Positions 1,320 through 50,406 of a DNA stretch of 64,000 nucleotides are shown piece after piece. Position numbers and translations under genes: made by a program. The notes beneath the pieces are model-generated. The model ran no database searches, was not told where the DNA came from, and saw nothing but the letters and a program-made list of their open reading frames with translations. Location of the stretch: NCBI GenBank assembly GCA_009840355.1, contig VXNZ01000021.1, positions 1-64,000 on the forward strand, written 5' to 3'. The stretch's first letter is position 1. The number at the start of each line of letters is the position of its first letter. This stretch comes from Chloroflexota bacterium. GTDB taxonomy: Bacteria; Chloroflexota; Dehalococcoidia; Lucifugimonadales; JADFKI01.

Positions 1320-2057
1320 TTAAAAGAAGCGCCGGCAAAGTTCCGCCCAGATTATTTCGCTGACTCGCTCCTGCGGCTGCGTGGCGTCAATTATGCAGAA
1401 CCTGTCCGGCTCGCGCGCCGCCAATTCGCGGTAGCCCTGCCGCACGCGCTCGTGGAACTCCAGTGGTTCTTCCTCGAAGCGCGCGCCTTCCTGCGCTCTC
1501 GCCGCGCTCTCGTGCAGCACGCTGTCGTCCAAACGGAAGCCTAATTGCAGATTGCCGATGCGCGTCAGCCCGCTGACCGGCGGCAGGTCGAGCAGGAATG
1601 TCAGGTCGGGCATAATGCCCTGCGTGGCGAGCGCGTTCACCGCTTCGACCTGCGCCAACGGTATGCCACGCCCGTAGCCTTGATACGCCGTCGTGGAATC
1701 GACATACCTGTCCGCTATGATTATCATGTCGGGGATTGGCGTGTCGGGCTGTGCATCGGGCTGTTCGCCGCGCGGCATGTCCGGCTGCTCGGACGACAGC
1801 AGGGGTTGCAGCACCTTGAGCACAAGCTCCGCGCGCGCCGCTGAGAACAGCAGCAGTTCGGCGTGGTCGGACATATCTCCATCGCCGGGCAAGCCGCGCT
1901 TGAGTATGTCGCGCACTTGCCAGCCAAGCTCGGTGGTGCCCGGTTCGTGCACGAACTCCACGCCGATGCCGAGCGCAGTAAGCCTGTCGGTCAGGACTGA
2001 TGCCTGCGTCGATTTGCCGCTGCCCTCGCCGCCCTCGAACGATATGAACACCGCCAT
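1320..2057 (-). CDS. tmk: Thymidylate kinase
   Basis: dTMP kinase (dTMP + ATP to dTDP + ADP), cytosolic, needed for dTTP synthesis. The P-loop EGGEGSGKST is at residues 8-17, the EPGTTELG substrate loop near 38, DRY at 116-118 followed by S-x-x-A-Y-Q-G, and an arginine-containing lid region near residue 170. At 245 residues it is longer than the usual 205-215. The excess is mostly a Pro/Asp/Gln-rich stretch at about residues 89-110, just before DRY, that looks like a disordered insertion. It starts 5 bases after the stop of the upstream ATPase gene, so the two are probably co-transcribed. Confidence 0.93.
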   Translation of the reverse strand: MAVFISFEGGEGSGKSTQASVLTDRLTALGIGVEFVHEPGTTELGWQVRDILKRGLPGDGDMSDHAELLLFSAARAELVLKVLQPLLSSEQPDMPRGEQPDAQPDTPIPDMIIIADRYVDSTTAYQGYGRGIPLAQVEAVNALATQGIMPDLTFLLDLPPVSGLTRIGNLQLGFRLDDSVLHESAARAQEGARFEEEPLEFHERVRQGYRELAAREPDRFCIIDATQPQERVSEIIWAELCRRFF

Positions 2058-2062
2058 GCCGC

Positions 2063-3664
2063 CTACCGCCTGTACATCACCACATGGCGGTTAGGCTCGC
2101 GCCCTTCGCTGGACGAATAGACGCCGCGTTCGTTCGCGACCTTGTGCTGCAAATGGCGAACGAACGCCGCCTGCGGACTGAGCGTTACATGCTTGGTTTC
2201 GCCTTCTTCCAGCATCGACACGGCGCGCTCCGCCTCGTCGATGGCGTCGGAGTGTTCCATCTTGTGCTGCGCGTCCTGAGACTGCTTGCGCACTAGCGCC
2301 TGCACGAACTGCTGAATTTGCGCGAGAGTGTTCTTCCGCAGCACATACACGGGCTTGCCGCGCTGTTCTGCGAGCTGCAGCGCCTGCGTGCTGCGCCGGT
2401 AGTAGTTCTTCGTGGTGAGCAGCATATCCGCCTTGCCCAAGTCCGCGACAAGCTCGACGGGCGCGTTGAGGCTGCGAACGGCTTGCATCAGCTTGCCCTT
2501 GTTGATGCCATACGGCAATATGCTGACCGACTCGAGCGGCACTGCGTCCGGCTGTTCGTCCTGCGTTTGTATGCTCCAACCGCGTCGTGGCGTATCGCGG
2601 CGCGCGCTGCCGTTTTGGCTGCCACCATTGAACAACGCCGGCACTTTCGCCTCGGCGTGCGCGCGCTGCAGCCTGCCGAGTTCGTCAATCGTGCGCATCT
2701 GCGGCGCGATCGGCTGTCCGCGCAGCATCCTGTCCACGACATCGGACACATCTTCATGCACTACGACTTCGTTCCAGCCCTGTATTTCCACGAGAATGTC
2801 GAATGTGGGTGGCGCGCGCCGTTCGCGGACGGTCTTCTGCGTGCCGCGCCGCCGCGCCTCGATGTCGCCCAGCGTAACCGCTTCCACGCCGCCGACGAGA
2901 TCGGACAGCGTCGGGTTCATGATGAGGTTGTCGAGCGTATTGCCGTGCGCTGTGGCGACAAGCTGCACGCCGCGCTCTGCGATGGTGCGCGCCGCGTCCG
3001 CATCGTCGCCCGTGCCGATTTCATCGATGACGATGACTTCAGGCATGTGGTTTTCCACTGCTTCAATCATCACGGCGTGCTGAAGCGCGGGCAGGCGCAC
3101 TTGCATTCGCCGCGCTCTGCCGATGCCTGGATGGGGTATGTCGCCGTCGCCCGCGATTTCGTTAGAAGTGTCCACAATGATGACGCGCTTGAGGGCGTCG
3201 TCCGCAAGCACGCGGGCAATCTCGCGCAGCATGGTCGTTTTGCCCACGCCTGGCTTGCCGAGCAGAAGAACGCTCTTGCCGCTCAGCACCAGGTCTTCGA
3301 TGATGCGAATCGTGCCGTACACCGCCCTGCCCACGCGCAGAGTCAGTCCGACGACGCGGCCCGAACGGTTGCGAATGGCGGAAATGCGGTGCAGCGTGCG
3401 CTCTATGCCCGCGCGATTGTCCTCGCCGAAAGTGCTGACTCTATCGATTACAAAATCGATGTCCGATTGCGCAATCTCTTGGCTGGAAAGCACGAGGCTC
3501 TCGCTGAGAAAGCGCGCCTCCGGTTCCCTGCCGAGGTCGAGCACTACCTCCAGCAGTTCGTTCACATCTTCGCGCTCCAGCAGCAATTCTCGGATGTGCG
3601 GCGGAAGCGTATCGATCAGCGATTCAAGGTCCGCGTCCAACTGTGTTCTTAACAACTGAGTCAA
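2063..3664 (-). CDS. R3H-domain AAA ATPase (SpoIIIAA/Ycf45-like)
   Basis: A 533-residue protein with an AAA-type ATPase core and a nucleic-acid-binding C-terminus. The Walker A motif GKPGVGKTT is at about 136-144 and Walker B VIVIDEIGT at about 210-218, followed by a sensor-like ATAHGNTLDNL. A separate domain after about residue 370 (PYGINKGKL...VRSL) leads to the C-terminal R3H motif, in which Arg and His are three residues apart (VRHLQH), then GREPNR. This order is typical of the bacterial and plastid R3H-ATPase (Ycf45) family, whose role is poorly defined. The start is TTG at 3664, supported by GAGGAGG four bases upstream. It heads the cluster with tmk and the PPOX gene. Confidence 0.85.
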   Translation of the reverse strand: MTQLLRTQLDADLESLIDTLPPHIRELLLEREDVNELLEVVLDLGREPEARFLSESLVLSSQEIAQSDIDFVIDRVSTFGEDNRAGIERTLHRISAIRNRSGRVVGLTLRVGRAVYGTIRIIEDLVLSGKSVLLLGKPGVGKTTMLREIARVLADDALKRVIIVDTSNEIAGDGDIPHPGIGRARRMQVRLPALQHAVMIEAVENHMPEVIVIDEIGTGDDADAARTIAERGVQLVATAHGNTLDNLIMNPTLSDLVGGVEAVTLGDIEARRRGTQKTVRERRAPPTFDILVEIQGWNEVVVHEDVSDVVDRMLRGQPIAPQMRTIDELGRLQRAHAEAKVPALFNGGSQNGSARRDTPRRGWSIQTQDEQPDAVPLESVSILPYGINKGKLMQAVRSLNAPVELVADLGKADMLLTTKNYYRRSTQALQLAEQRGKPVYVLRKNTLAQIQQFVQALVRKQSQDAQHKMEHSDAIDEAERAVSMLEEGETKHVTLSPQAAFVRHLQHKVANERGVYSSSEGREPNRHVVMYRR

Positions 3665-3891
3665 GGAACCTCCTCAGTATCCGTCATCAACCTGCCAGCC
3701 GAATACATACACTTTATCATAGCATTGCAAATCGGCGTAAAGTAGAACCCTGCACAGCTAAGGCTGAGTATAATTGCCAAGATATGTGTCAAGATATGCC
3801 CCATCTCCATATCGGAGAGGGGTAGGAAGAGAGTAACGACCGATTTATTCCCAGAGCTATGACTAAGGCGTTAACGAACGCGCTAAATATG
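3665..3891. other. Intergenic leader region upstream of the R3H-ATPase gene
   Basis: An AT-richer stretch between the divergent tail of pdxT and the ATPase gene. On the minus strand TATGAT lies about 50 bases before the TTG start, near a TTGCAA, which is a plausible but not clear promoter. Around 3798-3822 there is an imperfect hairpin (CCCCATCTCC against GGAGAGGGG with one bulged A) of the same C/G-run type as the repeats elsewhere in the window. Confidence 0.35.
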
Positions 3892-4485
3892 CTAGGATCG
3901 CTGCTCGACCATGCGGGCGAATAGCTCGTGAATGCGTGAATCGTCAGTCAGTTCGGGATGGAATGAGGTCGCGAGCATACCGCCCTGGCGCACCGCTATG
4001 GGACGCCCGTCATCGAGAGCCGCCAGCACTTTAACCGACTCGCCCACGCTGTTCACCACCGGCGCGCGTATGAAAACGCAGTGGAAGGGCGCACCTTCGA
4101 TTTCCTCGAACTCGATGTCCGCCTCGAAGCTATCCACCTGGCGGCCAAAGGCATTGCGGCTAACTTCTATATCCATTAGGCGCAGCGGATCGGGACGCCT
4201 GTCCGTCAGCCTATCGGCGACGACAATCATGCCGGCGCAGGTGCCCCAGATTGCCATGCCCTCCCGCGACCTCTGCCGCAGCGAGTCGCGAAAGCCGTAC
4301 ATGTCAATTAACTGCACAATTGTCGTGCTCTCACCGCCGGGAATAATCAACCCGTCAATCTCGTCAAGTTGGTCAGGCAGCCGGATTTCGGGCGCGTCGA
4401 TACCCAGGCGGCGCAGCGCCTGTCTATGCTCCAGAAAGTCGCCTTGAACTGCTAATACGCCTATCCTGGGCGCGCCGCTCGACAA
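3892..4485 (-). CDS. pdxT: Pyridoxal 5'-phosphate synthase glutaminase subunit PdxT
   Basis: The glutamine amidotransferase of the DXP-independent vitamin B6 pathway; it hands ammonia to PdxS. The N-terminus reads IGVLAVQGDFLEH, the oxyanion/glutamine-binding motif PGGEST follows, the nucleophile is Cys 83 in WGTCAGM, and the His/Glu pair is in SFHPEL near the C-terminus. I place the start at TTG 4485, two bases downstream of the pdxS stop and about 8 bases after GAGG. This gives 197 residues, normal for PdxT. A longer frame from 4593 would overlap pdxS by 107 bases with a non-conserved leader. Confidence 0.92.
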   Translation of the reverse strand: MSSGAPRIGVLAVQGDFLEHRQALRRLGIDAPEIRLPDQLDEIDGLIIPGGESTTIVQLIDMYGFRDSLRQRSREGMAIWGTCAGMIVVADRLTDRRPDPLRLMDIEVSRNAFGRQVDSFEADIEFEEIEGAPFHCVFIRAPVVNSVGESVKVLAALDDGRPIAVRQGGMLATSFHPELTDDSRIHELFARMVEQRS

Positions 4486-21846: not shown

Positions 21847-22968
21847 ATGACAACCCTAACACAACCTAAGCCAGCGCCACAGCCGGACGCAGCACGCACA
21901 ACGCCCACAGTCGCGGTGGTGCATACGACACCTGAGACTGTGCTAGACGACATCGGCGCAGCGATGCGGCTCGCGGGCTACGAGCGGGCACTGCCCAAAG
22001 ACTACGCCACGCTGCTGAAAATCAATATATCTTGGCAGCACTACTACCCGGCTTGCTCCACGGCACCTTGGCAGTTGGACGGCGCAATACGCGCGCTGAG
22101 AGCCGATGGATACGACCGCCTGATTCCGGCGCACAACGGCACGGTGGTCGTGGACGCGAAAGAAGGCGCGGTCAGGAACAAGCACAAGACCGTCGAGCGG
22201 CTGCACGACTTGGACGCGCTGTATCTCGAAGACGCGAACTGGGTCGATTTTCAGCCGCAGGATAGAATGCTCGCGCTCGACCGCATCTATCCGAACGGCT
22301 TTCAGATTCCGGCGGACTTCATCGGCAAGAACGTGCTGCACCTGCCCACGATGAAGACGCATGTGTTCACGACCATTACCGGAGCGATGAAGAACGCATT
22401 CGGCGGGCTGCTGAACCACAATCGCCACTGGACGCACTCCGCTATTCACGAGACGCTGGTTGACCTGCTGCAGATACAGAGGCAGATTCACCCGGGCATT
22501 TTCGCCGTGACCGACGGCACATTCGCCGGCGACGGCCCTGGTCCCAGAGCGATGCGGTGGCACGCGAAGAATGTGATACTCGCGAGCGCGGATCAGGTCG
22601 CTATCGACGCCGTTTCCGCCAAGATGATGGGCTTTGATCCACTCGGCATTGAGTTCATACGGCTGGCGCACGAAAAAGGGCTGGGATGCGGCGATATGCG
22701 CGAGATCGAGATCGTGGGCGCGGACATATCGAGCGTGGACTGGGGATTCAGCAGCGGCGAAAACACGCTCTTCAGCAGCGGCCAGAAGTCGGTCTATTGG
22801 GGACCGTTCAAGCCTCTGGAGAACGCCATAGCGCGCTCGCCGCTCGTCAACCTAGCCATCGCCGCCTCCAACCTGTACCACAACGGCTACTGGCTGCCCC
22901 TAATCGGCAAAAAGCGAGTTGAAGCCGCGATGCGGACGGAGTGGGGCAGGCTGTTCCAGAGTTACTAG
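21847..22968 (+). CDS. DUF362 domain protein
   Basis: A 373-residue DUF362 protein with the family's LLKINISWQHYYPACSTAP opening, LPTMKTHVFTTITGAMKNAF core, and DGTFAGDGPGP followed by VILASADQVAIDAVSAKMMG. Some DUF362 proteins are fused to ferredoxin domains and are thought to handle Fe-S or anaerobic chemistry; this one has no 4Cys ferredoxin motif. The start may be ATG 21847 (AGAAGAG upstream), 21811 or 21775. Its TAG stop overlaps the stop of the convergent LRR gene in the palindrome CTAG (22965-22968). Confidence 0.82.
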   Translation: MTTLTQPKPAPQPDAARTTPTVAVVHTTPETVLDDIGAAMRLAGYERALPKDYATLLKINISWQHYYPACSTAPWQLDGAIRALRADGYDRLIPAHNGTVVVDAKEGAVRNKHKTVERLHDLDALYLEDANWVDFQPQDRMLALDRIYPNGFQIPADFIGKNVLHLPTMKTHVFTTITGAMKNAFGGLLNHNRHWTHSAIHETLVDLLQIQRQIHPGIFAVTDGTFAGDGPGPRAMRWHAKNVILASADQVAIDAVSAKMMGFDPLGIEFIRLAHEKGLGCGDMREIEIVGADISSVDWGFSSGENTLFSSGQKSVYWGPFKPLENAIARSPLVNLAIAASNLYHNGYWLPLIGKKRVEAAMRTEWGRLFQSY

Positions 22969-25900
22969 CGCGCAGGCGTTGAACGCGAGTCCGTCTGAGG
23001 CGCGAACTGCGTGTACGGCGAATATGTCGGCGGCATTCGATGCTCTATACCGGCGTCGGCGGGAATGCCGCTTGGCATGCCAGAGCCGCTAGGCGGCGGG
23101 CAGCGAAACGTCCTATCGAACAGCGCGCTTCCGGTCTGTCCGTTCCAGTATGCCAGGTTCAAGTCAACTATCGTCAGCCATTCATAGTTAGTGCAAGCCG
23201 CACCCTCCATCTCAATGATGAACAAGCCGTTCGTCCCGACCACGTCGATATGCCCGAATGGGTTAGGCTTGAGCTGATGCCCCGTCGCCGTAACGATGCC
23301 GGTGATTCCTAGATTCGGCAGCACGGCGACACCGGAGGTGTCGGTAGTCAGCGTGAACTCCGGCGTAGCGTCCAAGATATGCCCTTCCGGCTGTAGTTCA
23401 TACTGATAGAAGCGCAGGGACACATCAGGCGTCGGGCTGCCGTCCGAATCCAGCACCCTGACGGATGTGGTTTGCGGCGTGTCGTACAGGTATTCGCCAT
23501 AGAAGCCGCGCCTATGGCCCGTGTTGCTACGCAAACCGCCGGCAGTGTGCGCGCCGACTATTTGATCAGGGGAACCTGACATGATGTCACCAATTCCCTT
23601 GGGAAACTCATAACAGATCCATTCATGGGTCCAGTAATCTTCGCCACATCCAGCCTTGTAGCCGGGTCTATTGGCGTCCCTAAGCAAGATGTTTTGTGGT
23701 CCTGGGCGCATTTGATAGAGGTCAATAGTACCGAGTTGATGCAGCAGTTCGTGGAGCAATCCCCAATCGATTTCCGGACGGTTCTGATAACCGTCAAGAG
23801 TGAAGAACGAACCTTCGTTATCGATAGTACCCCACCAGCCGTCCATGTAACGGCGCAAGTTATGGCTGGAGGCTAAGTTGCGATCTTCCGATATATGGAA
23901 AAGTTCAGCCCGAACACGCTCATCAAGACCCGCTTCGGCTAACAGCTCATTCAGGCGAGATACGTTACCGTGTATCCAATGCTCTGGCGACTGGATCGCC
24001 TGACCGGGTTCATTGGATAATCTGAGAGATTCGTAGGCAACGGGAGTGAAGTAAAACCCCAGAGTGTACCCCTTTATCCAGTCAACAAGCGTGTTGTTGT
24101 TTTCCAGCAACTCAAGAACGCTGTCATCAGGGTCTATCTCGAATGTAACGGTCGGGTTGCTTCCACTGCCTGGCCACCGCATCGAGAGCGGGATTTCGGC
24201 ACTTCCGCCCGTCTCCAGCCCTTCATGCCGTCCCGTGGATACAACTATCTCGCCCAACAGCCAACGATAATTGAACGGACCCGACGCCGTATCGCCAAAG
24301 TTCCATATATGCGCCCTCAGGTCAACCGTTTCGCCTGCATCCGGCCATCGTTTCACATTGTCCTGCTCAGGACATACTATCGGACCTCTAGGTTCGTCGA
24401 ATGGATACGGACATTCATACTGGTTTGCGAAGTAAGTAACCATGTAACTTGGGTAGCGTGGTAGCCGCTCTATGTAAGTAACTCCTAAGTCAATTCCACC
24501 GTCAAACACGGGCCTGTGAGACCATCCATAGTTGTCGGAGCAATTGATGCCTACGACCGTAGCAATTGATTGCAGCCATTCCTGAAACTCGGTACTGTCC
24601 GGAGCGCACAGACCGGAGTTGCTATCGAAGCGAAACTCTATAAGTTGATTAAAAGATGTCAGGCTTTCCGGCAGTTCTCCCATCAACTGATTGGCATGAA
24701 GAATTAGGTGCTTGAGATTTACGAGGTTGCCTAGTTCATCCGGTACCTTCCCCGTCAACTGATTGCTTCCCACGCTAAGCCAGGTCAAATTGACCATGTC
24801 GCCCATCTCTACTGGTATCGCGCCTGTCAATTTATTATCCCCAAAATCCAGTGCCTCTAGATCTGTCAGATTGCCCAACTCCGGAGGTATTTCGCCGGAC
24901 AGACTGTTATTGTTCAGCCACAATTCTCGCAAATCGCGCAGATTACCCAACTCGGACGGCAATTGCCCCATCAGATTATTCCATCCAATCCTCAATTCGG
25001 TAGCGCGCCCTTCGCTGTTCGTTCGCACACCGTACCATTGGTTCAGCGGCGCGTCGGTCAGCCAGTTCGTGTTGGCGCGCCAGTCGTCGCCGTTCGTGGC
25101 GTTGTAGAGCGCGACCAGCGCGGCGCGGTCGGCATCGGCAGAAGGCAGCGGCGTAGGATCCGGGGGCGTTGGCGGCGCATCTATGCCGCTCACCGTCAGC
25201 GTGAATCTGCCTCCTGCGTCCGAATCGTAGGTCGTCGCTTCTATCGTGTATTCCCCGGTTTGCAGCGGAACCTCGATGCGTGAGTTCGAGTCGCCGGCGG
25301 CATAGTCTATGTCGTCGTTCGAGTGCAGCGCATTTCCGCCGGCGCCCGCCCCGTTCAGCACATACAAGTATGTGTCGGTTTCCGATTCCAGCGTTATCGT
25401 TACATCCGAGCGTTCGACTAGGCGAAAAGTATAGTATCGCGCGTAGTAGTCGCCACCTCTCGGTCTTTTGTCGTCTGCAGGTCTGTTGTCGGATAGGCAG
25501 GCGTCAGTCCACACGCCGCTGATAGTGCCGTCTGCGCTCAGTGTTTCGACGCAGTCATCTACCACCGGAGGCTCGTCGCATGTATCACCCGTGAAGTTGG
25601 GGACGGTCAGCGTCCAGTCCTGAAATTCGGCGTCGTCCGGTGCGCAAAGCCCGGCGTTATCGTGAAAATGCAGAGTCTGCAAATACCGCAAGTTGGTCAG
25701 GCTCTGCGGCAACTGACCCGACAATGAATTGTCGTTCAGTATCAGGGAGTTCAGATAGGTGAGATTTCCCAACTCCGGCGGGACGGGCCCGGTCAGTTGG
25801 TTGAATTCCAACTCCAGATATACCAGACTGCCGAGAAGACTCAGTTCGGACGGAATCTCACCCGTAAGGTAGTTATGACTCAGAAACAAGCCTTTCGGGT

Positions 25901-26894
25901 TATGGATTTCCGTTAGCTCGGACGGAATGCCGCCGGTGAGCTCGTTCCCTTCAAGCCATAACGAATTCAGGTTGGCAAGCCTGCCCAACTCAGGCGGTAT
26001 TTCACCGCTAATCCGGTTGTATCCCAACGCCAGTTCTCGCAGGTGGCTGAGATTCCCCAACTCGGGCGGTATTTCGCCGCTAATCCGGTTGTTCCCCAAC
26101 ACCAGATATTGCAGGTGGCTGAGATTCCCCAACTCAGGCGGTATCGTACCCACGAGTTCGTTGTGCCCAAGCGATAATACGACAACCCGCCCGTCTGCAT
26201 CCACATGCACGCCATGCCACTCGCGCAGCGGCCTGTCGCTCAGCCAGTTCTCATTGTTGTGCCAGTCGTCGCCGTTAGTGGCGTAGTAGAGCGCGACCAG
26301 CACCTCAAAGTCCAAGAGGTTTGCGCCGGGCGGCACGGGTATCCCCGGGTCGTCGGCCGTGAATTCCAGCGTGAGCATGAAGAGTTCTCCGATACCCGCA
26401 GCCGGATCATAGGTCGTCGCCTCTATCGTGTACACGCCGGCATCAAGCGTCGCTTCTATGCGCGAGTTCAGATTTCCCCTATCGATGTCGTCATTCTTGC
26501 GCAGCGCCTCACCGTCCTTGCCTGCGCCGCTTAGCAGATACAAATATGTGTCCGTTGACGATTCCAGCGTTATCACCACCTCCGTTGTGCGGCTCAGGCT
26601 GAAGGGATGGTAGCGAGCGTAGTAGTCGCCATCGCTGGGTCTGTCCGCATCGACAGGTCTGTTCCCGGAGAGACATCCATCATTCCACTTTCCCTCGATG
26701 GTCGAGCCGGCAAGCAAGAATGGAATGGGATACACAGGATCGACGCAGTCATCTACGTAATGCGCGGGTGGCGCATACGTGTCGGGCTGCGCGCCGGCAG
26801 TCCCGCCGTTCGCCTGCGCGAACAGCGCGCCCACGACCGCAAGGACGATTACGACCAGACGAACTGACGTACCGGAACACCGCTTAACTGGCAA
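22965..26894 (-). CDS. Secreted PPC-LRR-CARDB protein with HExxHxxGxxD metallopeptidase motif
   Basis: A 1309-residue exported protein. The order is: signal peptide (about 1-35, VVIVLAVVGALFA); a PPC-like beta domain (about 45-190, DDYYAR-type YYARYHPFSLS and TDTYLYLLSGAG); a cap plus about eight plant-type LRRs of 24 residues (G-x-IPPELGNL-x-x-L); a second PPC-like domain (about 445-580); a second LRR block of about six; a CARDB-like domain (about 835-960); and a region with HELLHQLGTIDLY at about 1047-1059. That motif fits a zinc peptidase with two His and a Gly-x-x-Asp third-ligand pattern. A carboxypeptidase-regulatory-like fold (VRVLDSDGSPTPDVSLRF) follows. I choose TTG 26894, just after the SelA-like gene stop, because it places the signal peptide at the N-terminus; the frame is open to 27014. 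Likely a surface adhesin or protease. The protease activity is inferred from one motif. Confidence 0.8.
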   Translation of the reverse strand: MPVKRCSGTSVRLVVIVLAVVGALFAQANGGTAGAQPDTYAPPAHYVDDCVDPVYPIPFLLAGSTIEGKWNDGCLSGNRPVDADRPSDGDYYARYHPFSLSRTTEVVITLESSTDTYLYLLSGAGKDGEALRKNDDIDRGNLNSRIEATLDAGVYTIEATTYDPAAGIGELFMLTLEFTADDPGIPVPPGANLLDFEVLVALYYATNGDDWHNNENWLSDRPLREWHGVHVDADGRVVVLSLGHNELVGTIPPELGNLSHLQYLVLGNNRISGEIPPELGNLSHLRELALGYNRISGEIPPELGRLANLNSLWLEGNELTGGIPSELTEIHNPKGLFLSHNYLTGEIPSELSLLGSLVYLELEFNQLTGPVPPELGNLTYLNSLILNDNSLSGQLPQSLTNLRYLQTLHFHDNAGLCAPDDAEFQDWTLTVPNFTGDTCDEPPVVDDCVETLSADGTISGVWTDACLSDNRPADDKRPRGGDYYARYYTFRLVERSDVTITLESETDTYLYVLNGAGAGGNALHSNDDIDYAAGDSNSRIEVPLQTGEYTIEATTYDSDAGGRFTLTVSGIDAPPTPPDPTPLPSADADRAALVALYNATNGDDWRANTNWLTDAPLNQWYGVRTNSEGRATELRIGWNNLMGQLPSELGNLRDLRELWLNNNSLSGEIPPELGNLTDLEALDFGDNKLTGAIPVEMGDMVNLTWLSVGSNQLTGKVPDELGNLVNLKHLILHANQLMGELPESLTSFNQLIEFRFDSNSGLCAPDSTEFQEWLQSIATVVGINCSDNYGWSHRPVFDGGIDLGVTYIERLPRYPSYMVTYFANQYECPYPFDEPRGPIVCPEQDNVKRWPDAGETVDLRAHIWNFGDTASGPFNYRWLLGEIVVSTGRHEGLETGGSAEIPLSMRWPGSGSNPTVTFEIDPDDSVLELLENNNTLVDWIKGYTLGFYFTPVAYESLRLSNEPGQAIQSPEHWIHGNVSRLNELLAEAGLDERVRAELFHISEDRNLASSHNLRRYMDGWWGTIDNEGSFFTLDGYQNRPEIDWGLLHELLHQLGTIDLYQMRPGPQNILLRDANRPGYKAGCGEDYWTHEWICYEFPKGIGDIMSGSPDQIVGAHTAGGLRSNTGHRRGFYGEYLYDTPQTTSVRVLDSDGSPTPDVSLRFYQYELQPEGHILDATPEFTLTTDTSGVAVLPNLGITGIVTATGHQLKPNPFGHIDVVGTNGLFIIEMEGAACTNYEWLTIVDLNLAYWNGQTGSALFDRTFRCPPPSGSGMPSGIPADAGIEHRMPPTYSPYTQFAPQTDSRSTPAR
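25985..26150 (-). repeat. Near-identical 72-bp LRR-coding tandem repeats
   Basis: Within the first LRR block, units of 72 bp (24 codons) repeat with very few differences: CTGAGATTCCCCAACTC and GGCGGTATTTCGCCGCTAA recur at 72-base intervals between about 25985 and 26150. The DNA-level similarity, including third positions, points to recent unit duplication or gene conversion rather than old divergence. Confidence 0.7.
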
Positions 26895-41474: not shown

Positions 41475-42368
41475 CTATTGCACATCGTCCGGTGTCAGCG
41501 TAACCATGCCGTCTTGGGTGTCGATACGTGCGCGTTCGCCGATTTTCAGGCGGTCGATGATGTCGCGCGGAATCTGCACCCTGCCGCTGCCGTCCACCAA
41601 GATGAACTCTTCGAGCGGGTCGTCGGTGGATGCGGCGCCGGACAGTCGCTGGAATGTTACCCTGCGGCGCACTTCCGTCGCCATTTTGCCATCGCGAATC
41701 ATCACCACGCGCCCGACCTTGTACGCGATGTCCGGGTCGTGCGTAACGATTAGAATCGTGGTGTCCAGTTCGCGGTTAATCTCGCCGAACAGGTCGAGTA
41801 TTTCGGCGGCGGTGTTGTCGTCGAGTTCGCCGGTAGGCTCGTCTGCTAACAGCAGAGGCGGGTGATTGGCGAGCGCGACTGCGATGGCGACGCGCTGCTG
41901 CTCACCTCCGCTCAACTTCTCGGGCGTGTGCCCCATGCGATGTCCTAGCCCGACGAGTTCGAGCAGTTCTTCAGCGCGCTTTCTGCGCTCGCCGGGCGAT
42001 GTAAAGGTCAGCATCATCGGCAGCGCGACATTTTCCACGGCGGTCAGATACGGGAACATATTGCGGCTCGTCTGCTGCCAGATGAACCCCACTTCGTCGC
42101 GCCTGTACAATTCTGTTTCGTTCGGCGTCATTCGCAGCAGGTCTTTGTCTCCCACGCTCACACGCCCGGCCGACGGCGAATCATAGCCGGCGAGGATGTT
42201 CAGCAGCGTGCTCTTGCCGCTGCCGCTCGCACCTACGATTGCCACCACCTCGCTGCGCTGCACATTCAGGTCAAGCCCACGCAGCGCCACCACTTCCAGA
42301 TCGGCAATCTTGTATATCTTGAACAGGTCTTCGCAGACGATATACGCTTCTCGGTTTGCGTAGGTCAT
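41475..42368 (-). CDS. ABC exporter ATPase with C-terminal AbrB-like domain
   Basis: A 297-residue protein. The first about 235 residues are a MacB/LolD-type ATPase: Walker A GASGSGKST, Q-loop FIWQQTSRNMFPYLTAVENV, signature LSGGEQQRVAIAVAL, Walker B LLLADEPTGELDD and H-loop VTHDP. After a short linker (about 236-252) comes a domain of about 45 residues, EEFILVDGSGRVQIPRDIID then LKIGERARIDTQDGMVTLTP. It has the D-x-x-GR-x-x-IP-x-x-I-x-x-x-L-x-I pattern of SpoVT/AbrB/MazE swapped-hairpin domains. This tail might dimerise the ATPase or bind DNA; neither is shown. AAGGA lies about 7 bases before the ATG. It is 41 bases downstream of the permease gene. Confidence 0.85.
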   Translation of the reverse strand: MTYANREAYIVCEDLFKIYKIADLEVVALRGLDLNVQRSEVVAIVGASGSGKSTLLNILAGYDSPSAGRVSVGDKDLLRMTPNETELYRRDEVGFIWQQTSRNMFPYLTAVENVALPMMLTFTSPGERRKRAEELLELVGLGHRMGHTPEKLSGGEQQRVAIAVALANHPPLLLADEPTGELDDNTAAEILDLFGEINRELDTTILIVTHDPDIAYKVGRVVMIRDGKMATEVRRRVTFQRLSGAASTDDPLEEFILVDGSGRVQIPRDIIDRLKIGERARIDTQDGMVTLTPDDVQ

Positions 42369-42409
42369 GTATTTTTCCTTTTGTGCTGTACATCGATGTC
42401 TGTATCAGA

Positions 42410-45400
42410 CTAAAGCTCGCCCAGCCTCAATATCCTTTGCAGGGAGATGCGGCGGATGAACCAAATCATGCCCAGTATTATTGCGGTGAACACTAGGATC
42501 ATGAAGCCGTAGGTGATTGCCAGCGTGCCCCAGTCGATTTCCAGCACGAAGGGCGGCAGCACCTGTGTGCCGCGCTCGTTGTGGCTCAGGAACGGCATGA
42601 TTATCGCGCCGAGCCGCCGTCCCATCTCCGCGCCGAGCGCCATGCCCGCACCGATGACTATCGCCTGCTCCAGCCAGACCAGCGTTACCAGCTGCCGCAT
42701 GGAAAAGCCGACCGTGCGCATCAGACCGAACTGCATCTCGCGCTCGCGGAACGACACATACGAATGCACCAGGAAGCCGAGGCAGCTCAGTATCAGCACC
42801 GCGCCGAATGCCATGAACAGCAGCGCACGCCAGCCAGCCTGCACCAGCGGATCGACCGTAGCCTCTTCCAGCGCTTCCGCGCGGTCGTACACCGCCCTGC
42901 TCTGGAACGGCTCGCCGTTGTCGCGCATGTCAGCCACCAGCATCGCCCGGTCATAACCGTTGCCCGCCGCGCCGGAAATCGTATCGGATGTCGTGCGCAG
43001 CCACATCTCGTTGGGCTTAATTTCGGCGGATGTCGGCTCTAGGTTCGTGTAGCGCACGACAGACGCGACATCGGCGACGAGGTATCGCTTGCCAACGGTG
43101 TCGAGCGTCGGGAAGTATTCGAACGAATCTATGATGCGTATCGGCGTGCGGTGTCCTGAAATCGAGACCGTGAACTCCTCGCCGACGCTGTGTCCGGTGT
43201 CCGACAGGAACGAACGGCTCGCCAGCACGGGCAGCGGGCTTGCCTCCGGACCGTGGTATATGCCGCGTCCAGTGAGCGGGGGACCTTCCGACCAGATGAA
43301 CTGCGCCGCGCCTTGTTCTGCCTCGCCGTTGTCGCCGGCGCTCACGGGCTGCAGGATGTCTGTGATGGACTCGCGCGCGCCGCGCAGCACCGTCCAGTCT
43401 GATACGGCATCGAAGTCTTCGAGTACGGTTACGCGGTTTGAGCCGTCGCGCACCCAGATTTCGTCGATGGTGATGTTGCCGGCGCGCAGTCTGCCACGCG
43501 AGTTTGTGTCGTGTATCGCGAGCGAGACCATCGTCAGCGGCTGCGTGGGCTGTAGCGGTATGAAGCGGCGGAAGTTCGTGCCTCGCGCAAGTCCGCGCTC
43601 AAGCGTCAGCCAGTCGCCATTGCCGCCAAGCAGTCCCATCACATAGGTGAAGTACCTGTCGTTGGCGTCTTTGATGCGGATGGACAGCGCCAGGCTTTCA
43701 CGCGGTCTATCCGGCTTGACGCGAATTCCAATGCCGCGCGAATCTACTGGCAGGTCAATGCCGATGGGCGGGTTGGCGTGGTCGAGCTGCGTGAGCAACT
43801 GCGACATCGGGCGTTCCGAGAAGTCGCCGCGGAACCAGCCCACGCGGTTGAGCGTATCGCCGTCCACCGCGACCATTGTGTAACTTTCGCCCAGCAATTT
43901 CGACAAGTCCGTGCCGAACGCCTTCACGACGGGCGACGCCTCATCTACCAGCTCGATGTTCTCGTATGTCTCAACGAGCGGGACGCTGCTGCCGCGGCTG
44001 TTGACAGTCAGCCCTTCCACGCGGATGTCTGCGCCGGTAGCGTACTGCGCCTGCTCTCTGAAGCTGCGCTCCAGCGTACCGCCGAAACTCGCGGCGAATA
44101 TGCCCAAGCCCGCCATCAGGATGAGCAGCAGCGACATCCGCGCGTAGTGCGTGGGGTTGCGCGCCATCTGCCACATTCCCATAGAGAAACCGACCGGCGC
44201 TCTCTGCGCGAACGCCGCAAACGCCAAGAATATCAGACCGAGCGGCAGCGGCACGAAGAAATTCACGCCTGCCGACACGCTTACCAGCAGCACACCACCC
44301 ACGATGCCGGGCGTTATCGCCGTGCTGCCGTTGTTGTACGCGAGGAACTCAAGCACAGGCACGGTCGCGGGGCTGAGCACCAGCGCGGCAATCAGGACGA
44401 ACTGCGCGGCAAGTCCTATCGCGCGCAGTCTGCCGTCTCGCAGGCGTTCCGTCGCGGCGTACATCGCGGTCATAAGCGCCACTATACCCAGAGATATGCC
44501 GCGCGCCGTCCAGTCCCATTCGCCACCATTTGCGCCACCATTTGCGCTGCCGAATATGATGGTCGCCGCTTGCACGGCAGCCGCCACGCCGACAATGAGG
44601 TGCATTAGATTAGGCGAATCTCCGCTGATGTAGCGGATGGATAGGGGGAATAGCCGCAGCAGCGACACGGCGAACGCGACGAGTATCAGCGCAGGCACGG
44701 CGAGCAGCGCCTGATTGACCGCGACCGTACCGAACAGCCCGGTCGCTACCACTGAGCCCTGATCGTGCAGTTGGCGGAACAGGAAGATGCTAATCACCAG
44801 CAGCATTACGTCGAGGTAGAAGCGCTGGTAGAACGGCGGGCCCGTGGGACGCGCGGATTGCTGCCTGTGCCGCGTAACGCCGATGCGAGACGCGCGCACT
44901 GCGGGTATGAGCAGCGCCGCAAAGCTGAACAGTCCGCCCAGCCCGCTCATCAGATACGCGCCTCTTGTGATGAACACATTTAGCCGTTCGCCGCCGCTCA
45001 GGTCTGCGAAGGCGGGCGTGAATCCCATCAGGCTGATTATAGACGCGGCAAGCAGCGGCGCGACCACTATGGCAATAAGCGAGATCGTCGCGCCCTCCAA
45101 TATGAACACGACGAGTATTTGCCCGGAGCTTGCGCCGCGGCTGCGCAGCAGCGCTAGTTCACCGCGCTGCTGTTCGACTAGCAGCGACGACAGCGTTACG
45201 ACATAGTAGATAATGACAACCGCTATAAGCACCATCACCACGAACATAGGGATCTTGCTGAAGAACAGCCGCCTGTCGTAGTCGGCGAGCGTGGAATCGA
45301 GCGTTGTCAGCTGACGAAATCCGAACAGGTTCGTGGCGAGCTGCGAGCGCATCGTGCGCACTTGCAGGTGCGTTATCGTGGTGTTCCCCGCGTTCAGCCT

Positions 45401-46207
45401 ATCGCGGTCGGTGTCCAAATGCCACGCGTACGACGAGTCCATATCGGTGAAGTTCGCGCCGAGTATGTTGAAAAACATCTGCTCGGAGACGAAGAACGGC
45501 ATCGTGCGGAATGATCCGGAAGTGATTGACCTGAACAGCGTGTCGTGCTGATGCCAGAACTCCGAGTTCGGGTCATTGCGCTCGAATATGCCGCTGATGA
45601 CAACGCTGGTGTATGGAGTGCGGTCGCGCCAGTATGGAACGGCGGATATATTATCGCCAACGCCAACGCCGAACATTTCGGCTGCGTCCGCCGGCACCAG
45701 CGCTTCGAGTGCGAGCGGCGCGCCGGCGAGTTCGATGGGCTGTTCGTTGGGGAATCTGCCGCCGGGCAGCAGCGTGATGTTGTCCGTCAGGCGCGGGTTG
45801 AAAGTAAAGAACGCGCGCGCGTCATCCCTGCCCGCGTTCTCTTCGTTGCCCGGCACGGTTAGGTAGAATGTCGCGGTCTTCGCGCTGCGTTGCACATCTT
45901 GGAACAGCCAGTTGAGCCGCCCTTCGTACTGGTAGGTCATCGCATCGGCGACCCTCCCGTATTCTTCGACCGTGGTCGGACCGCGCTCAGCCTTCAGCAA
46001 TATGTCAAGCTGCAGCGGCTCTACCTGATTGAGCGAGTTCTTGAGCGCAAGTTCGCGCAGCGCGTCGAAGTAGATGACCGTGCCCGCCATCACCGTGGAC
46101 GACAGCAGCACGCCAATGACGACCGTGGACAGCAGCCGCCAGTGCGACAGGCTGCGCTTAGCCACCATTGGCCAGGCCGCGATTATTGCTGAAAGTGCTG
46201 CGCGCAT
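42410..46207 (-). CDS. Giant FtsX-type ABC permease (second of pair)
   Basis: A 1265-residue membrane protein. An N-terminal helix (about 27-47) leads to a MacB-PCD-like extracytoplasmic domain (about 50-300), then three FtsX helices (about 310-440) with the characteristic LVEQQRGELALLRSRGAS loop. Further helices (about 475-680) precede a second large extracytoplasmic region (about 700-1110), and a final FtsX helix set carries MQFGLMRTVGFSMRQLVTLV. Inside the second region is a beta-rich segment (about 870-960: GNITIDEIWVRD, then VLEDFDAVSDWTVL) resembling a carbohydrate-binding module, present also in the upstream paralogue. It probably works with the adjacent ATPases to export or release lipids, peptides or envelope components. 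No ribosome site is evident at ATG 46207. Confidence 0.88.
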   Translation of the reverse strand: MRAALSAIIAAWPMVAKRSLSHWRLLSTVVIGVLLSSTVMAGTVIYFDALRELALKNSLNQVEPLQLDILLKAERGPTTVEEYGRVADAMTYQYEGRLNWLFQDVQRSAKTATFYLTVPGNEENAGRDDARAFFTFNPRLTDNITLLPGGRFPNEQPIELAGAPLALEALVPADAAEMFGVGVGDNISAVPYWRDRTPYTSVVISGIFERNDPNSEFWHQHDTLFRSITSGSFRTMPFFVSEQMFFNILGANFTDMDSSYAWHLDTDRDRLNAGNTTITHLQVRTMRSQLATNLFGFRQLTTLDSTLADYDRRLFFSKIPMFVVMVLIAVVIIYYVVTLSSLLVEQQRGELALLRSRGASSGQILVVFILEGATISLIAIVVAPLLAASIISLMGFTPAFADLSGGERLNVFITRGAYLMSGLGGLFSFAALLIPAVRASRIGVTRHRQQSARPTGPPFYQRFYLDVMLLVISIFLFRQLHDQGSVVATGLFGTVAVNQALLAVPALILVAFAVSLLRLFPLSIRYISGDSPNLMHLIVGVAAAVQAATIIFGSANGGANGGEWDWTARGISLGIVALMTAMYAATERLRDGRLRAIGLAAQFVLIAALVLSPATVPVLEFLAYNNGSTAITPGIVGGVLLVSVSAGVNFFVPLPLGLIFLAFAAFAQRAPVGFSMGMWQMARNPTHYARMSLLLILMAGLGIFAASFGGTLERSFREQAQYATGADIRVEGLTVNSRGSSVPLVETYENIELVDEASPVVKAFGTDLSKLLGESYTMVAVDGDTLNRVGWFRGDFSERPMSQLLTQLDHANPPIGIDLPVDSRGIGIRVKPDRPRESLALSIRIKDANDRYFTYVMGLLGGNGDWLTLERGLARGTNFRRFIPLQPTQPLTMVSLAIHDTNSRGRLRAGNITIDEIWVRDGSNRVTVLEDFDAVSDWTVLRGARESITDILQPVSAGDNGEAEQGAAQFIWSEGPPLTGRGIYHGPEASPLPVLASRSFLSDTGHSVGEEFTVSISGHRTPIRIIDSFEYFPTLDTVGKRYLVADVASVVRYTNLEPTSAEIKPNEMWLRTTSDTISGAAGNGYDRAMLVADMRDNGEPFQSRAVYDRAEALEEATVDPLVQAGWRALLFMAFGAVLILSCLGFLVHSYVSFREREMQFGLMRTVGFSMRQLVTLVWLEQAIVIGAGMALGAEMGRRLGAIIMPFLSHNERGTQVLPPFVLEIDWGTLAITYGFMILVFTAIILGMIWFIRRISLQRILRLGEL

Positions 46208-46275
46208 GTTAGTCAGTCAGTCGTTCAGTGGGTCAGTCTATCAGTCTGTCAGCCGGGAGCGGCTAGGCGGTATTG
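46208..46275. repeat. CAGT-repeat tract between the two permease genes
   Basis: GTCAGTCAGTCGTTCAGTGG then GTCAGTCTATCAGTCTGTCA: iterated CAGTC/CAGT units with 7-8 base spacing, the same family as the tracts around 9100, 9330 and 33910. Confidence 0.55.
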
Positions 46276-49200
46276 CTATTCCAGCCGTGATATGGCGTGG
46301 AAGTCTAGGTTGCGCATGCTGCGGGTTAGGCGATAAACGGCTAAGGCGAATATGCCGATTAGCACGGCGTACAGCGCTATGAGGAAGCGCAGGTCGGTTT
46401 CCAGTATGAACGGCGGTATCACTTCCCTGCCGTTCTCGGTAACCGCAACCGATGATACCATAAGGTCGCTCATTAGCCAGCCCGCGCCCGTGCCCAAGCC
46501 TATGCCCACCGCCACGATGATGAAGTGTTCGAGCATCAGCAAGCCCGCCATCTGCCGCGACGACAGCCCGACAGACTGCAAGAAGCCCATCTCGTTGCGG
46601 CTGCGATTGGCGAACGCGAGCAGGTATGTTATGTAGCCTAGCCCTGCGGTGAAGACGATGATAATCATCGCGAGCAGCACCATCGCCTGCCAGCCTGCGG
46701 TGATGAGCGGGTCTAGCCGCACCTGATCCAACTGCGTCTCGCGGTCGTGCACAAGATCGCGCCCGACAAGCCGCGTTACCACATCGCGTACCGATGTACC
46801 CGCGCCGGACGCCTTTTCGATGAACATCTCGTTGGGAGACGCCACGACCGCCGGGCTGAGGATGTTGATATGGCGGACCAGCGTTTCCATGTCGGCAATC
46901 AGGAAGCCGGCGCCGGCGGGATTGAGCGTGGGGAAGAAGTCAACGGAATCGCGCACTTGCACCGGCACAAAGCGTCCCTTCAGCTCCACGATGAGTGCGT
47001 CTCCGATGCGCGCGCCGGATGTCCGCAAGAACGAGTTGCTCGCAACAACCGGCACAGGACCTCCACTCGGACTGCGGTATATGCCGCGCAGTCCGTTGTC
47101 CGTGTCCTTGCCGAATGAGAACATCCCGGTCTGCTCACCCTCGAACACATCGTCTCTCGCGTACGCCAGCGAGTCCGAAGATATTGTCGAAGTGGCGAGC
47201 GGCAGCCATGTGGAGCGGCTGTCCTCAAAGTCTTCCAGCACCTGCGTTGTGCCGTTGCGCCGGATGGCGTGCAGGTCGTCGATGCGGATGTTGCCCGCCG
47301 TGCCGGCGGGACCGAAGACCGGCTCGTATATCTGAATGGACGCCAATTGCAACGGACGCTTGAGTCGCGGCGGCACTCGCAGCGTGCGCAAGTGCCATTC
47401 CGGGGGCCCCATATTGCCGAACGACACGGTGTCCAACACGCCGTCCGCGTCTTGCAATACTAGCCACATGAACATGTTCGGATACACTTCCGCAGGCTTA
47501 ACCCAGACGCCTATGCCTTCGGTATCGTCAGGCAGGTCGATGGACTCGCTGACGGTGAGCGGGCTAAGCGCGCGCATCACTTCCGGCAGCGAACTGCGAG
47601 AGAAATCGTCTCTGTACCACGCGTGATAGTGGAAATCGTCCGATTCCACGCCGAGCATGCGGAAAGTGTTGCCCGAGTAGTTCGCGCCAAGCGTGCCGCG
47701 GTCACGCCACGCCAGCGACACAGCAGTTACGCCGGGGATGGTAAGGTAGCGGTCGCGCAGCCCGTCAACGCTGCGCGCGATAAAGCCGGGTATGTTGGAC
47801 ACGCGCATGTCCGCTGCCGTGTCGTAGAGTATGCGCTCTTGGTAGCTCCTATTGAGCGTGCCTCCGACCGTCGTGGCGAGCACCGCGAGTCCGGTTACCA
47901 TCACCAACAGCAGCACCAGCCAGCTGTATTGCAGCGGGTTGCGCGCCATGTGCCACAGGCTCAGCGACACCCACACGGGCGACCTTTGCGACAGCAGTAC
48001 CAGCCCGTAGAAAAGCAGCTGCAGCGCTATTATCGCGGCGAAGCCGAGCGTGGGCAGGTAGGCGACCGTGCCGTCCGTCGGCGGGTAGAAATATATAAGA
48101 GCGGCGATGACGACGAGTTGCGCGGCAAAGCCGTACAGCGTGCTGCGAACCCGCCCGGCGCGCTGCGTCGCCCAGTACGCGCCCGCGCCCGCAAGCGCAA
48201 TGCAGATTGGCAGAATCGCGCCTGTAAGGTCGCCCTGCCGCATGCCGTCCAACGCGAGAGTAGCCGCGAGCGCCGCGGTTATGACCCACACATACAGGTG
48301 TACCAAGCCGGGAGATTCGCCGCTAATGAAGCGCACGAACAGAGGGAAGAAGCGCATGAAAACCAGCGCGACAAGCGTCAGCAGCAGCACGGGCGCGAAC
48401 AGCAGCGCCTCGTTTATTTCGATGCCGCTGAACAGACCGCCGCTTACCAGCTGCCCGCGCGCGTTCAGCTCCCAGAAGACCAGCCCGCCGATAGCGAGTA
48501 CCATGATGTCGAGGTAGTATCGTTGGAAGAACGGCACTTCGGGCGGGCGGGACGAGCGCAGTTTGTGGATGATAAGCCCGGTGCGCGCGCCGATGACGCT
48601 TGGCACGACGAATATCACAAGGCTAAGCGCGCCCACTCCGGCAGCGACTAAGAACGGCGTCCATCGCCAGTTGACGGGCAGCAAGTCGCCGCCCGTGATT
48701 TCCGTGAAGTACGGCAGCTTGCCCGATATGGCGATGACACCCATGGCAAGCAGCGGCGCGATTATGACGGCGACCGCCGTTATCACCAGCCCTTCGATGG
48801 AGTACAGGCGCACCAGCTGCGCCATGCTCACGCCGCGGCTTCGCAGCAGCGCGACATCGTCCTCGCGGCTTTGCACCAGATATGACACCATCATAGACAT
48901 GTAGTACAGCACCGTGATGACCATGATTGTCAGCAGCAGCAGCAGCGGAATGCTCGTGAAGAAGCTGCGCCGTTCAAAGCGGTCAAGCAGCGCGGTGATG
49001 CCCGTGAACACGGCGCTGCCTTGCATCTGCACCGCCATGCCGTTTTCCAGATTGTCGATGCGCGTGCGCAAGTCTTCCGGGCGAATGCGCTTGAGCGGCG
49101 CCTTATCCACAAAGATGAACCACGACGAAGATACCAGGCTGCCGGGGTACGCCTCGCCGAGGCTGTCCAACAGCGCCTGCCGCGTTACGAACATCGCGAT

Positions 49201-49923
49201 GGGCGGCTCTTCGGGATCGACCTCGATGCCCACATCGGGGATTTCTTCCAGCGGCGCGGGTTCCATGAACACATTCGCGTTCTGCTGCCAGTAGTCTTCG
49301 GTGGGGTCGGTAGGATCTATCAGACCGACGACTTCGGCGAAAATCGCCACATCGCTGCCGAGCGAAGGGCGTAGTTCAAGCGTGTCGCCCACTTGCAGGT
49401 CGAACACATTCGCCGGAGTCGCGCCAATCAGCACTTCGACATGCAGACCGTCACCGACCGGCGTAACCGTGTCCGTGTACGCGCGACCGGATGTGAAATC
49501 GACATGGTGTTCCACATTGGACAAGTATTGCAGATAGCCGCGCGACACGAGATCAACATCGGCATTGGCAAGCGGACGCCAAGGCGTGCCAACGAGCATC
49601 GTGCTGCCCTTGAGAAAGCGCTCGCGGCTCACATAGAAGTCCGAGATGTTATCTTCGATGAGCCTGTCTATCTCGGCGTCGGTGACATTCAGGCGCTCTT
49701 CGTTCAGGGGAATGTTCGGCGCGTAGGCGAAGATGTTCAGGAAGAGGATGGAGGAGCGGTCGATGGAAGTGTTGAGCGTGAGACGCGCCAGCGAGTTCAG
49801 ATACACGGGCGCGCCCGCAACCAGTGTGGACGCTATGATGATGCCTGCAAAGATGCTGAGCAGAAGCTTCCAGTCGGAGCTGAATCGCTTCGCGATGTAC
49901 CCGAAAGTCGAAAAAGAACGCAT
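46276..49923 (-). CDS. Giant FtsX-type ABC permease (first of pair)
   Basis: A 1215-residue paralogue of the adjacent permease with the same plan: N-terminal helix (about 15-37), extracytoplasmic domain, FtsX helices with the cytosolic LVQSREDDVALLRSRGVSMA loop, a middle helix group (about 455-640), a second extracytoplasmic region and C-terminal helices with SRNEMGFLQSVGLSSRQMAG. The beta-rich insert is at about 865-960 (GNIRIDDLHAIRR, VLEDFEDSRSTWLPL). Length and twin FtsX segments resemble lipoprotein or lipid exporters whose two permease halves have fused. It is the first gene of the operon; ATG 49923 has only a weak AGGT nearby, and a dispersed repeat starts within 20 bases upstream. Confidence 0.88.
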   Translation of the reverse strand: MRSFSTFGYIAKRFSSDWKLLLSIFAGIIIASTLVAGAPVYLNSLARLTLNTSIDRSSILFLNIFAYAPNIPLNEERLNVTDAEIDRLIEDNISDFYVSRERFLKGSTMLVGTPWRPLANADVDLVSRGYLQYLSNVEHHVDFTSGRAYTDTVTPVGDGLHVEVLIGATPANVFDLQVGDTLELRPSLGSDVAIFAEVVGLIDPTDPTEDYWQQNANVFMEPAPLEEIPDVGIEVDPEEPPIAMFVTRQALLDSLGEAYPGSLVSSSWFIFVDKAPLKRIRPEDLRTRIDNLENGMAVQMQGSAVFTGITALLDRFERRSFFTSIPLLLLLTIMVITVLYYMSMMVSYLVQSREDDVALLRSRGVSMAQLVRLYSIEGLVITAVAVIIAPLLAMGVIAISGKLPYFTEITGGDLLPVNWRWTPFLVAAGVGALSLVIFVVPSVIGARTGLIIHKLRSSRPPEVPFFQRYYLDIMVLAIGGLVFWELNARGQLVSGGLFSGIEINEALLFAPVLLLTLVALVFMRFFPLFVRFISGESPGLVHLYVWVITAALAATLALDGMRQGDLTGAILPICIALAGAGAYWATQRAGRVRSTLYGFAAQLVVIAALIYFYPPTDGTVAYLPTLGFAAIIALQLLFYGLVLLSQRSPVWVSLSLWHMARNPLQYSWLVLLLVMVTGLAVLATTVGGTLNRSYQERILYDTAADMRVSNIPGFIARSVDGLRDRYLTIPGVTAVSLAWRDRGTLGANYSGNTFRMLGVESDDFHYHAWYRDDFSRSSLPEVMRALSPLTVSESIDLPDDTEGIGVWVKPAEVYPNMFMWLVLQDADGVLDTVSFGNMGPPEWHLRTLRVPPRLKRPLQLASIQIYEPVFGPAGTAGNIRIDDLHAIRRNGTTQVLEDFEDSRSTWLPLATSTISSDSLAYARDDVFEGEQTGMFSFGKDTDNGLRGIYRSPSGGPVPVVASNSFLRTSGARIGDALIVELKGRFVPVQVRDSVDFFPTLNPAGAGFLIADMETLVRHINILSPAVVASPNEMFIEKASGAGTSVRDVVTRLVGRDLVHDRETQLDQVRLDPLITAGWQAMVLLAMIIIVFTAGLGYITYLLAFANRSRNEMGFLQSVGLSSRQMAGLLMLEHFIIVAVGIGLGTGAGWLMSDLMVSSVAVTENGREVIPPFILETDLRFLIALYAVLIGIFALAVYRLTRSMRNLDFHAISRLE

Positions 49924-50406
49924 TACCTATATTGTCATTCCGAACACCCACACCTGTCGTTCCGAGCGAAGTGAGGAATCTAAAATCCTTGCATCAAGGG
50001 CAGGCACACGCTTGAAGCTTTCAACTCAATATGATGGCTGAAGCGCCTTCGACACCCGCAACGCCATAGTAGCACATAATCGCAACCCCCGTGCTTTCTC
50101 CCATCAACAAGACGATTTCGCAGATCAAGATCGCGGCTCTTTCCGCTCGCCCCTACCCGAACGGAAAGACGGATTTGTTAAATCTTCAGCGTCTCAGTTT
50201 GAAATGCAGAGCAGTCCACACCCCAGCCCACAACTCAGAATCCGATTCGGTGTTGGCTGAGGCAATTACAGTCACAAGAAGTCATATAACTTCACAATAA
50301 AGTTACCACATTGTGACATAGAAGAATGGTATTATCTAACATCCTTTGATTATTGACATTATCAGCCCCGACACCGTGGCCCAATTCTGCCGAAGGAACG
50401 GACCTA
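49924..50406. other. Divergent promoter region between ABC operon and SBP gene
   Basis: About 480 non-coding bases. At 49950-49985 there is a copy of the GTCGTTCCGAGCGAAGTGAG dispersed repeat. At 50106-50120 AGACGATTTCGCAGA resembles the MITE terminal repeat. From about 50270 to 50350 the DNA is strongly AT-rich (for example ACTTCACAATAAAGTTACCA, TTGTGAC, GGTATTATC), and this probably holds the promoter of the solute-binding protein gene, though no hexamer pair with ideal spacing stands out. Confidence 0.45.

Follow-up and report, generated by a model that had tools for sequence, protein, structure and literature searches.

Gene and domain organization

The window, which is the whole 64,000-nucleotide stretch of Chloroflexota DNA analysed here, carried on its minus strand a gene (22965..26894) encoding a secreted multidomain protein of 1309 amino acids. 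The reading frame was intact, with 1309 uninterrupted codons from a TTG start at 26894 to the stop at 22965; the upstream gene, encoding a PLP-dependent (SelA/aminotransferase-like) protein, had its stop at 26903, a few bases before the TTG. With the TTG read as Met, the N-terminus was MPVKRCSGTSVRLVVIVLAVVGALFAQANGGTAGA, and residues 1-35 (26790..26894) were predicted by eye as a signal peptide without a lipobox. This was followed by two PPC-LRR cassettes, a CARDB domain, the HELLHQLGTIDLY motif and an Ig-like tail, and no pro-segment was recognised in the 1309-residue protein.

PPC (two copies), LRR_1, LRR_4, LRR_8, LRR_14 and CARDB were above the Pfam cut-off. The first PPC domain (about residues 50-180; 26355..26747) matched PF04151 (46.1 bits) in two stretches, and the second (about residues 447-572; 25179..25556) had its best stretch at 486-553. 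The LRR blocks occupied about residues 195-440 (25575..26312) and 587-785 (24540..25136), with LRR_1 scoring 107.7 bits and LRR_14 matching residues 643-760 of the second block. A strict plant-type consensus fitted 11 units (block 1, six; block 2, five), and plant LRR receptor kinases were the best PDB sequence matches of the protein, with plant receptor matches to block 1. CARDB (PF07705, residues 851-936; 24087..24344) was found at E=4.8e-9 (36.8 bits against a cut-off of 22.7) and, in a second search, at E=2.7e-9. The corresponding part of our first AlphaFold model resembled the CARDB domain of PF1109 (3idu; Z 14.8, 105 residues, rmsd 1.6), and the structural Ig domain of this region began before the Pfam limit, at about residue 800.

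The zinc-peptidase-like domain (about residues 940-1140; 23475..24077) was delimited by a 37-member alignment and matched no family over its cut-off. It contained HELLHQLGTID at residues 1048-1058 (23721..23753), in which H1048, H1052 and D1058 are the predicted zinc ligands and E1049 the predicted general base, and GDIMSG at residues 1102-1107 (23574..23591), a predicted Met-turn with M1105. The C-terminal Ig-like domain (about residues 1141-1268; 23091..23474) was conserved in another alignment of relatives (A1), and its model matched 3e8v (Z 8.8 over 82 residues). A secreted protein combining PPC domains, plant-type LRRs, CARDB and HExxHxxGxxD had been proposed in the original prediction, and this was confirmed by the open reading frame, the Pfam matches, the consensus units and the motif. 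The motif residues had been numbered one too low (1047-1057).

The same genome had over a dozen further sites with similar LRR and/or PPC blocks, some in ORFs of >1000 aa, and is rich in these modules. At 50353-53388 (plus strand), the C-terminal part of a 1011-aa SBP_bac_5 solute-binding protein shared 51% identity with the second PPC region across about 145 residues, which makes this protein an unusual fusion. At 41475-49923 (minus strand), next to an ABC ATPase, lay two ORFs in tandem (1215 and 1265 aa) that have FtsX-like permease ends.

Relatives and distribution

When 250 genomes of the same order were searched with the single protein, relatives were found in five others at 55-64% identity, one of which had two tandem copies; these assemblies were labelled Chloroflexi or Dehalococcoidia. 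A sixth match in the order, from the same genus, covered the C-terminal 36 residues only. The match to G092/L023 (6.5e-4) in the single-protein search was rejected as spurious; it covered the C-terminal part only, without the motif. A further relative at 35% identity came from an assembly labelled Armatimonadota, and about 20 copies were detected in that genome with an eight-sequence profile. The same profile matched about 92 of 291 genomes in an Armatimonadota-centred search; it includes CARDB, and the weakest of these 92 matches may be CARDB only. The family is rare in the wider Chloroflexota: of 400 genomes sampled, four had a match to the peptidase profile, namely that of the window, one with a family member, one with an M6-type protein and one with a doubtful partial match. 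The window genome held one copy of the family. No relative was found in the plasmids and viral contigs searched. The six Chloroflexota sequences formed one clade in the tree with full support and a long branch, and paired Cys residues were conserved among Chloroflexota members.

The constant core of the family was CARDB-peptidase-Ig. Plant-type LRRs were present in the window protein and in all five complete relatives of the order, on one side of this core or the other. L031 and L032 had a lipobox-like N-terminus, a Thr/Pro-rich stalk and LRRs, and L033 had its LRRs after the core. In L034 (3993-10454) there were two tandem members, the first with a cyclophilin-type prolyl isomerase domain before the LRRs. 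A distant Chloroflexota member had HELGHARSLADLY with CARDB-like and Ig-like parts and no LRR, L134 had no added partner modules, and the partners in Armatimonadota members were BNR-like repeats, F5/8 type C, dockerin and weak fn3 domains. The LRR-less relative and the other partners in Armatimonadota show that the family can do without LRRs. Their position on either side of the core would fit an exchangeable aiming part, and it is plausible that they aim the enzyme at a target. In sponge symbionts, which include Chloroflexi, a role in contact with the host has been proposed for LRR and other eukaryote-like proteins (PMC6306507). Like the window protein, the plant-type LRR proteins of sponge-associated bacteria are secreted and carry LxGxIP repeats. 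In the window protein, however, the LRRs are joined to a predicted peptidase.

Conservation of the predicted active site

Active-site residues were counted in an alignment of 37 peptidase regions with a mean column identity of 27%; its members were 18-61% identical to the window protein, most of them 18-33%. Only five columns were invariant (37/37): Glu1049, His1052, Asp1058, Tyr1060 and Met1105. H1048, W1021 and N982 were kept in 36 of 37, and Q1053 and G1055 in 35, so that every element of HExxHxxGxx[HD] was retained in at least 35 members. The window copy and 36 of the 37 members kept all three predicted ligands plus the Glu. The family signature was HExxHQxGxxDxY, then G-[ILM]-M, then R-G-[FY]-[FY]-G-[ED]. 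Asp1058 and the Met1105-type residue were separated by 25-49 residues (median 33), although a Met at such a distance is a loose criterion that gapped alignment may help to satisfy.

HExxHxxGxx[HD] arose by chance in 5 of 20,000 shuffles of a protein of the same composition. Conservation across the family is a stronger case against chance than this shuffling. Without use of the site, it would be difficult to account for the retention of HExxHxxGxxD and a downstream Met in such divergent members. The metzincin-like zinc peptidase reading of the original prediction finds good support in this conservation and is probably right.

Comparison with known zinc peptidases

Residues 940-1140 had no Pfam, NCBIfam or PDB sequence match above threshold, in agreement with the earlier statement that clear similarity to named peptidases is lacking. 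When members were compared with Pfam, matches below the cut-off were to M43 (0.006), reprolysin (0.05) and M6 (0.058). The only PDB sequences matched by the family profile at E<=10 were two snapalysins at E=0.05 (0.053 over 48 positions), aligned on the motif. Full-text searches of open-access papers found neither such a family nor LRR-metzincin fusions described.

Zincins are divided by their third ligand and Met-turn, and Asp-zincins, clan MA(D), have an Asp third ligand and no Met-turn (PMC3890501). The predicted Asp ligand of the family fits this group, but the invariant downstream Met argues against the lack of a Met-turn. Snapalysin (family M7; PDB 1c7k, 4hx3) shares HExxHxxGxxD, the Asp ligand and a Tyr two residues on; it is, however, a tiny single-domain protein, and its Met is nearer the third ligand, about ten residues after it (PMC3890501). 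Pappalysin (family M43, PF05572), the best single-member Pfam match, has HExxHxxG and a Met-zincin layout in common with the family. Membership of M43 was rejected: the third ligand was His in most M43 proteins compared and Asp in all 37 members, and the profile match covered only 11 columns.

The leading alternative was M6 (immune inhibitor A; PF05547, TIGR03296), of which the family might be a true but highly divergent member rather than a separate family. M6 proteins are likewise secreted and multidomain, with HExxHxxGxxDxY, a downstream Met and H-x-x-A after the Met. Placed side by side, M6 proteins from the same phylum had HExxHxxGxPDxY, then for example G-x-W-S-L-M-A, then H-x-x-A, and their Met and that of the family stand in a common G-x-x-LM/IM-S/A/G context. 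An M6-type protein was also among the matches of the family's peptidase profile (E=2.5e-5), and hhalign aligned the family with M6 at 95% probability over 130 columns, compared with 0.2% for a reversed-profile control. However, the probability fell to 0.2% when the motif columns were masked, and we therefore do not claim M6 membership; no similarity to a known peptidase outside the motif was demonstrable in this masked comparison, although absence of such signal at this distance would be no proof against homology to M6.

The scores also stood against M6. Of the 37 members, 18 had a match to TIGR03296, the best at 0.003 and all far below the cut-off of 110.8 bits; the window protein had no match to PF05547 or TIGR03296, and the members reached neither cut-off. 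PF05547 matched none of 60 relatives, controls included, and this search was uninformative. M6 genes of the same phylum that passed the cut-off were at other loci than the family members. In contrast to M6, the family has a longer Asp-Met loop (shorter in the M6 examples compared), a conserved Gln after the second His, R-G-[FY]-[FY]-G-[ED] after the Met, and CARDB before and Ig after the peptidase domain. Taken together, a place inside M6 is possible but doubtful. More distant paralogues in G642 (L079, L081-L085) had HEFGHCCIALPDLYG, HELTHGLETPDLYGHP or similar strings, intermediate between the family and M6-like motifs, and may link the two.

A homologue with an altered zinc ligand

Loss of the two His residues was looked for in close homologues. 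One of five, L031 (family member at 1547-4153), had lost the first His only, with Tyr in its place; the codon is TAC, against CAC in L032, its nearest relative. In the comparison of the two peptidase domains dN was about 0.12, dS 0.8-0.9 and dN/dS about 0.13-0.15, indicating that the L031 domain is under purifying selection. The Tyr may be an artefact of assembly or mark a copy that is inactive. A domain preserved by selection after loss of a ligand, in a protein made up mostly of binding domains, is what would be expected if the family were an inactive relative that keeps a metal-bound fold as a binding or structural module. We consider this unlikely, as the three ligands and the Glu, itself invariant, are present together in the window copy and in 36 of the 37 members, and the motif stays while the binding modules vary among members.

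Structure models

The AlphaFold model of 479 aa built with 7 sequences had a pLDDT of 59 with a poor peptidase part, and that of the 215-aa peptidase region had a pLDDT of 42; the low confidence is probably owed to the shallow alignment. Both models being poor in this region, the zinc geometry and the Met-turn are proposed from sequence only. The pLDDT 42 model had strands, helix A, strands, the active-site helix and a late helix, an order compatible with a metzincin. More than half of its top 50 Foldseek matches were adamalysin/ADAM (ADAM-8)/TACE metzincins and the rest were mostly unrelated; with E values of 0.06-0.5, the metzincin matches may be taken as a hint only. VIA-align of the same weak model, a comparison of little weight, gave no metzincin; the folds listed were of the periplasmic-binding and LysR kinds, none above Z 5.

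That the protein is an HExxH metalloenzyme other than a peptidase, or belongs to a different zincin subclan, is very improbable: three members weakly matched TIGR04267 (aKG-HExxH peptide hydroxylase; 0.085 or worse) and the models gave no reliable fold, but the spaced G and D after HExxH with the invariant Met are a metzincin layout, and the better sub-threshold matches were peptidases.

Proposed function

We propose that the protein is an exported, zinc-dependent, metzincin-like endopeptidase of a CARDB-peptidase-Ig family that has no Pfam or NCBIfam model above threshold, with the LRR, PPC, CARDB and Ig parts serving in positioning; judged from the sequence evidence, the probability of this reading is roughly 0.77. 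Zinc would be held by H1048, H1052 and D1058, E1049 would activate water, and the loop with M1105 would form the Met-turn below the zinc site, as suggested by conservation in the family. The two LRR arcs with PPC, together with CARDB and Ig, may hold the enzyme at an extracellular protein target or surface. By its layout, the best reading is that the enzyme would act like an M6 or snapalysin-type metzincin, and we set it in neither family.

Since nearly all relatives retain the active-site residues and no Pfam or NCBIfam family was above threshold, this is probably a targeted protein-cutting enzyme of an undescribed family. The fuller proposal has about an even chance: that CARDB-peptidase-Ig proteins are a separate metzincin-like family with an Asp ligand and Met-turn, expanded in Armatimonadota, and that one clade in a Chloroflexota order carries LRR arcs on either side as interchangeable aiming parts.

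The finding points to a well-defined, testable zinc-peptidase family that has a clear active-site signature and is unnamed in Pfam and NCBIfam. With LRRs naturally joined to a protease, it would be possible to test directly whether plant-type LRRs of bacteria serve in substrate targeting.
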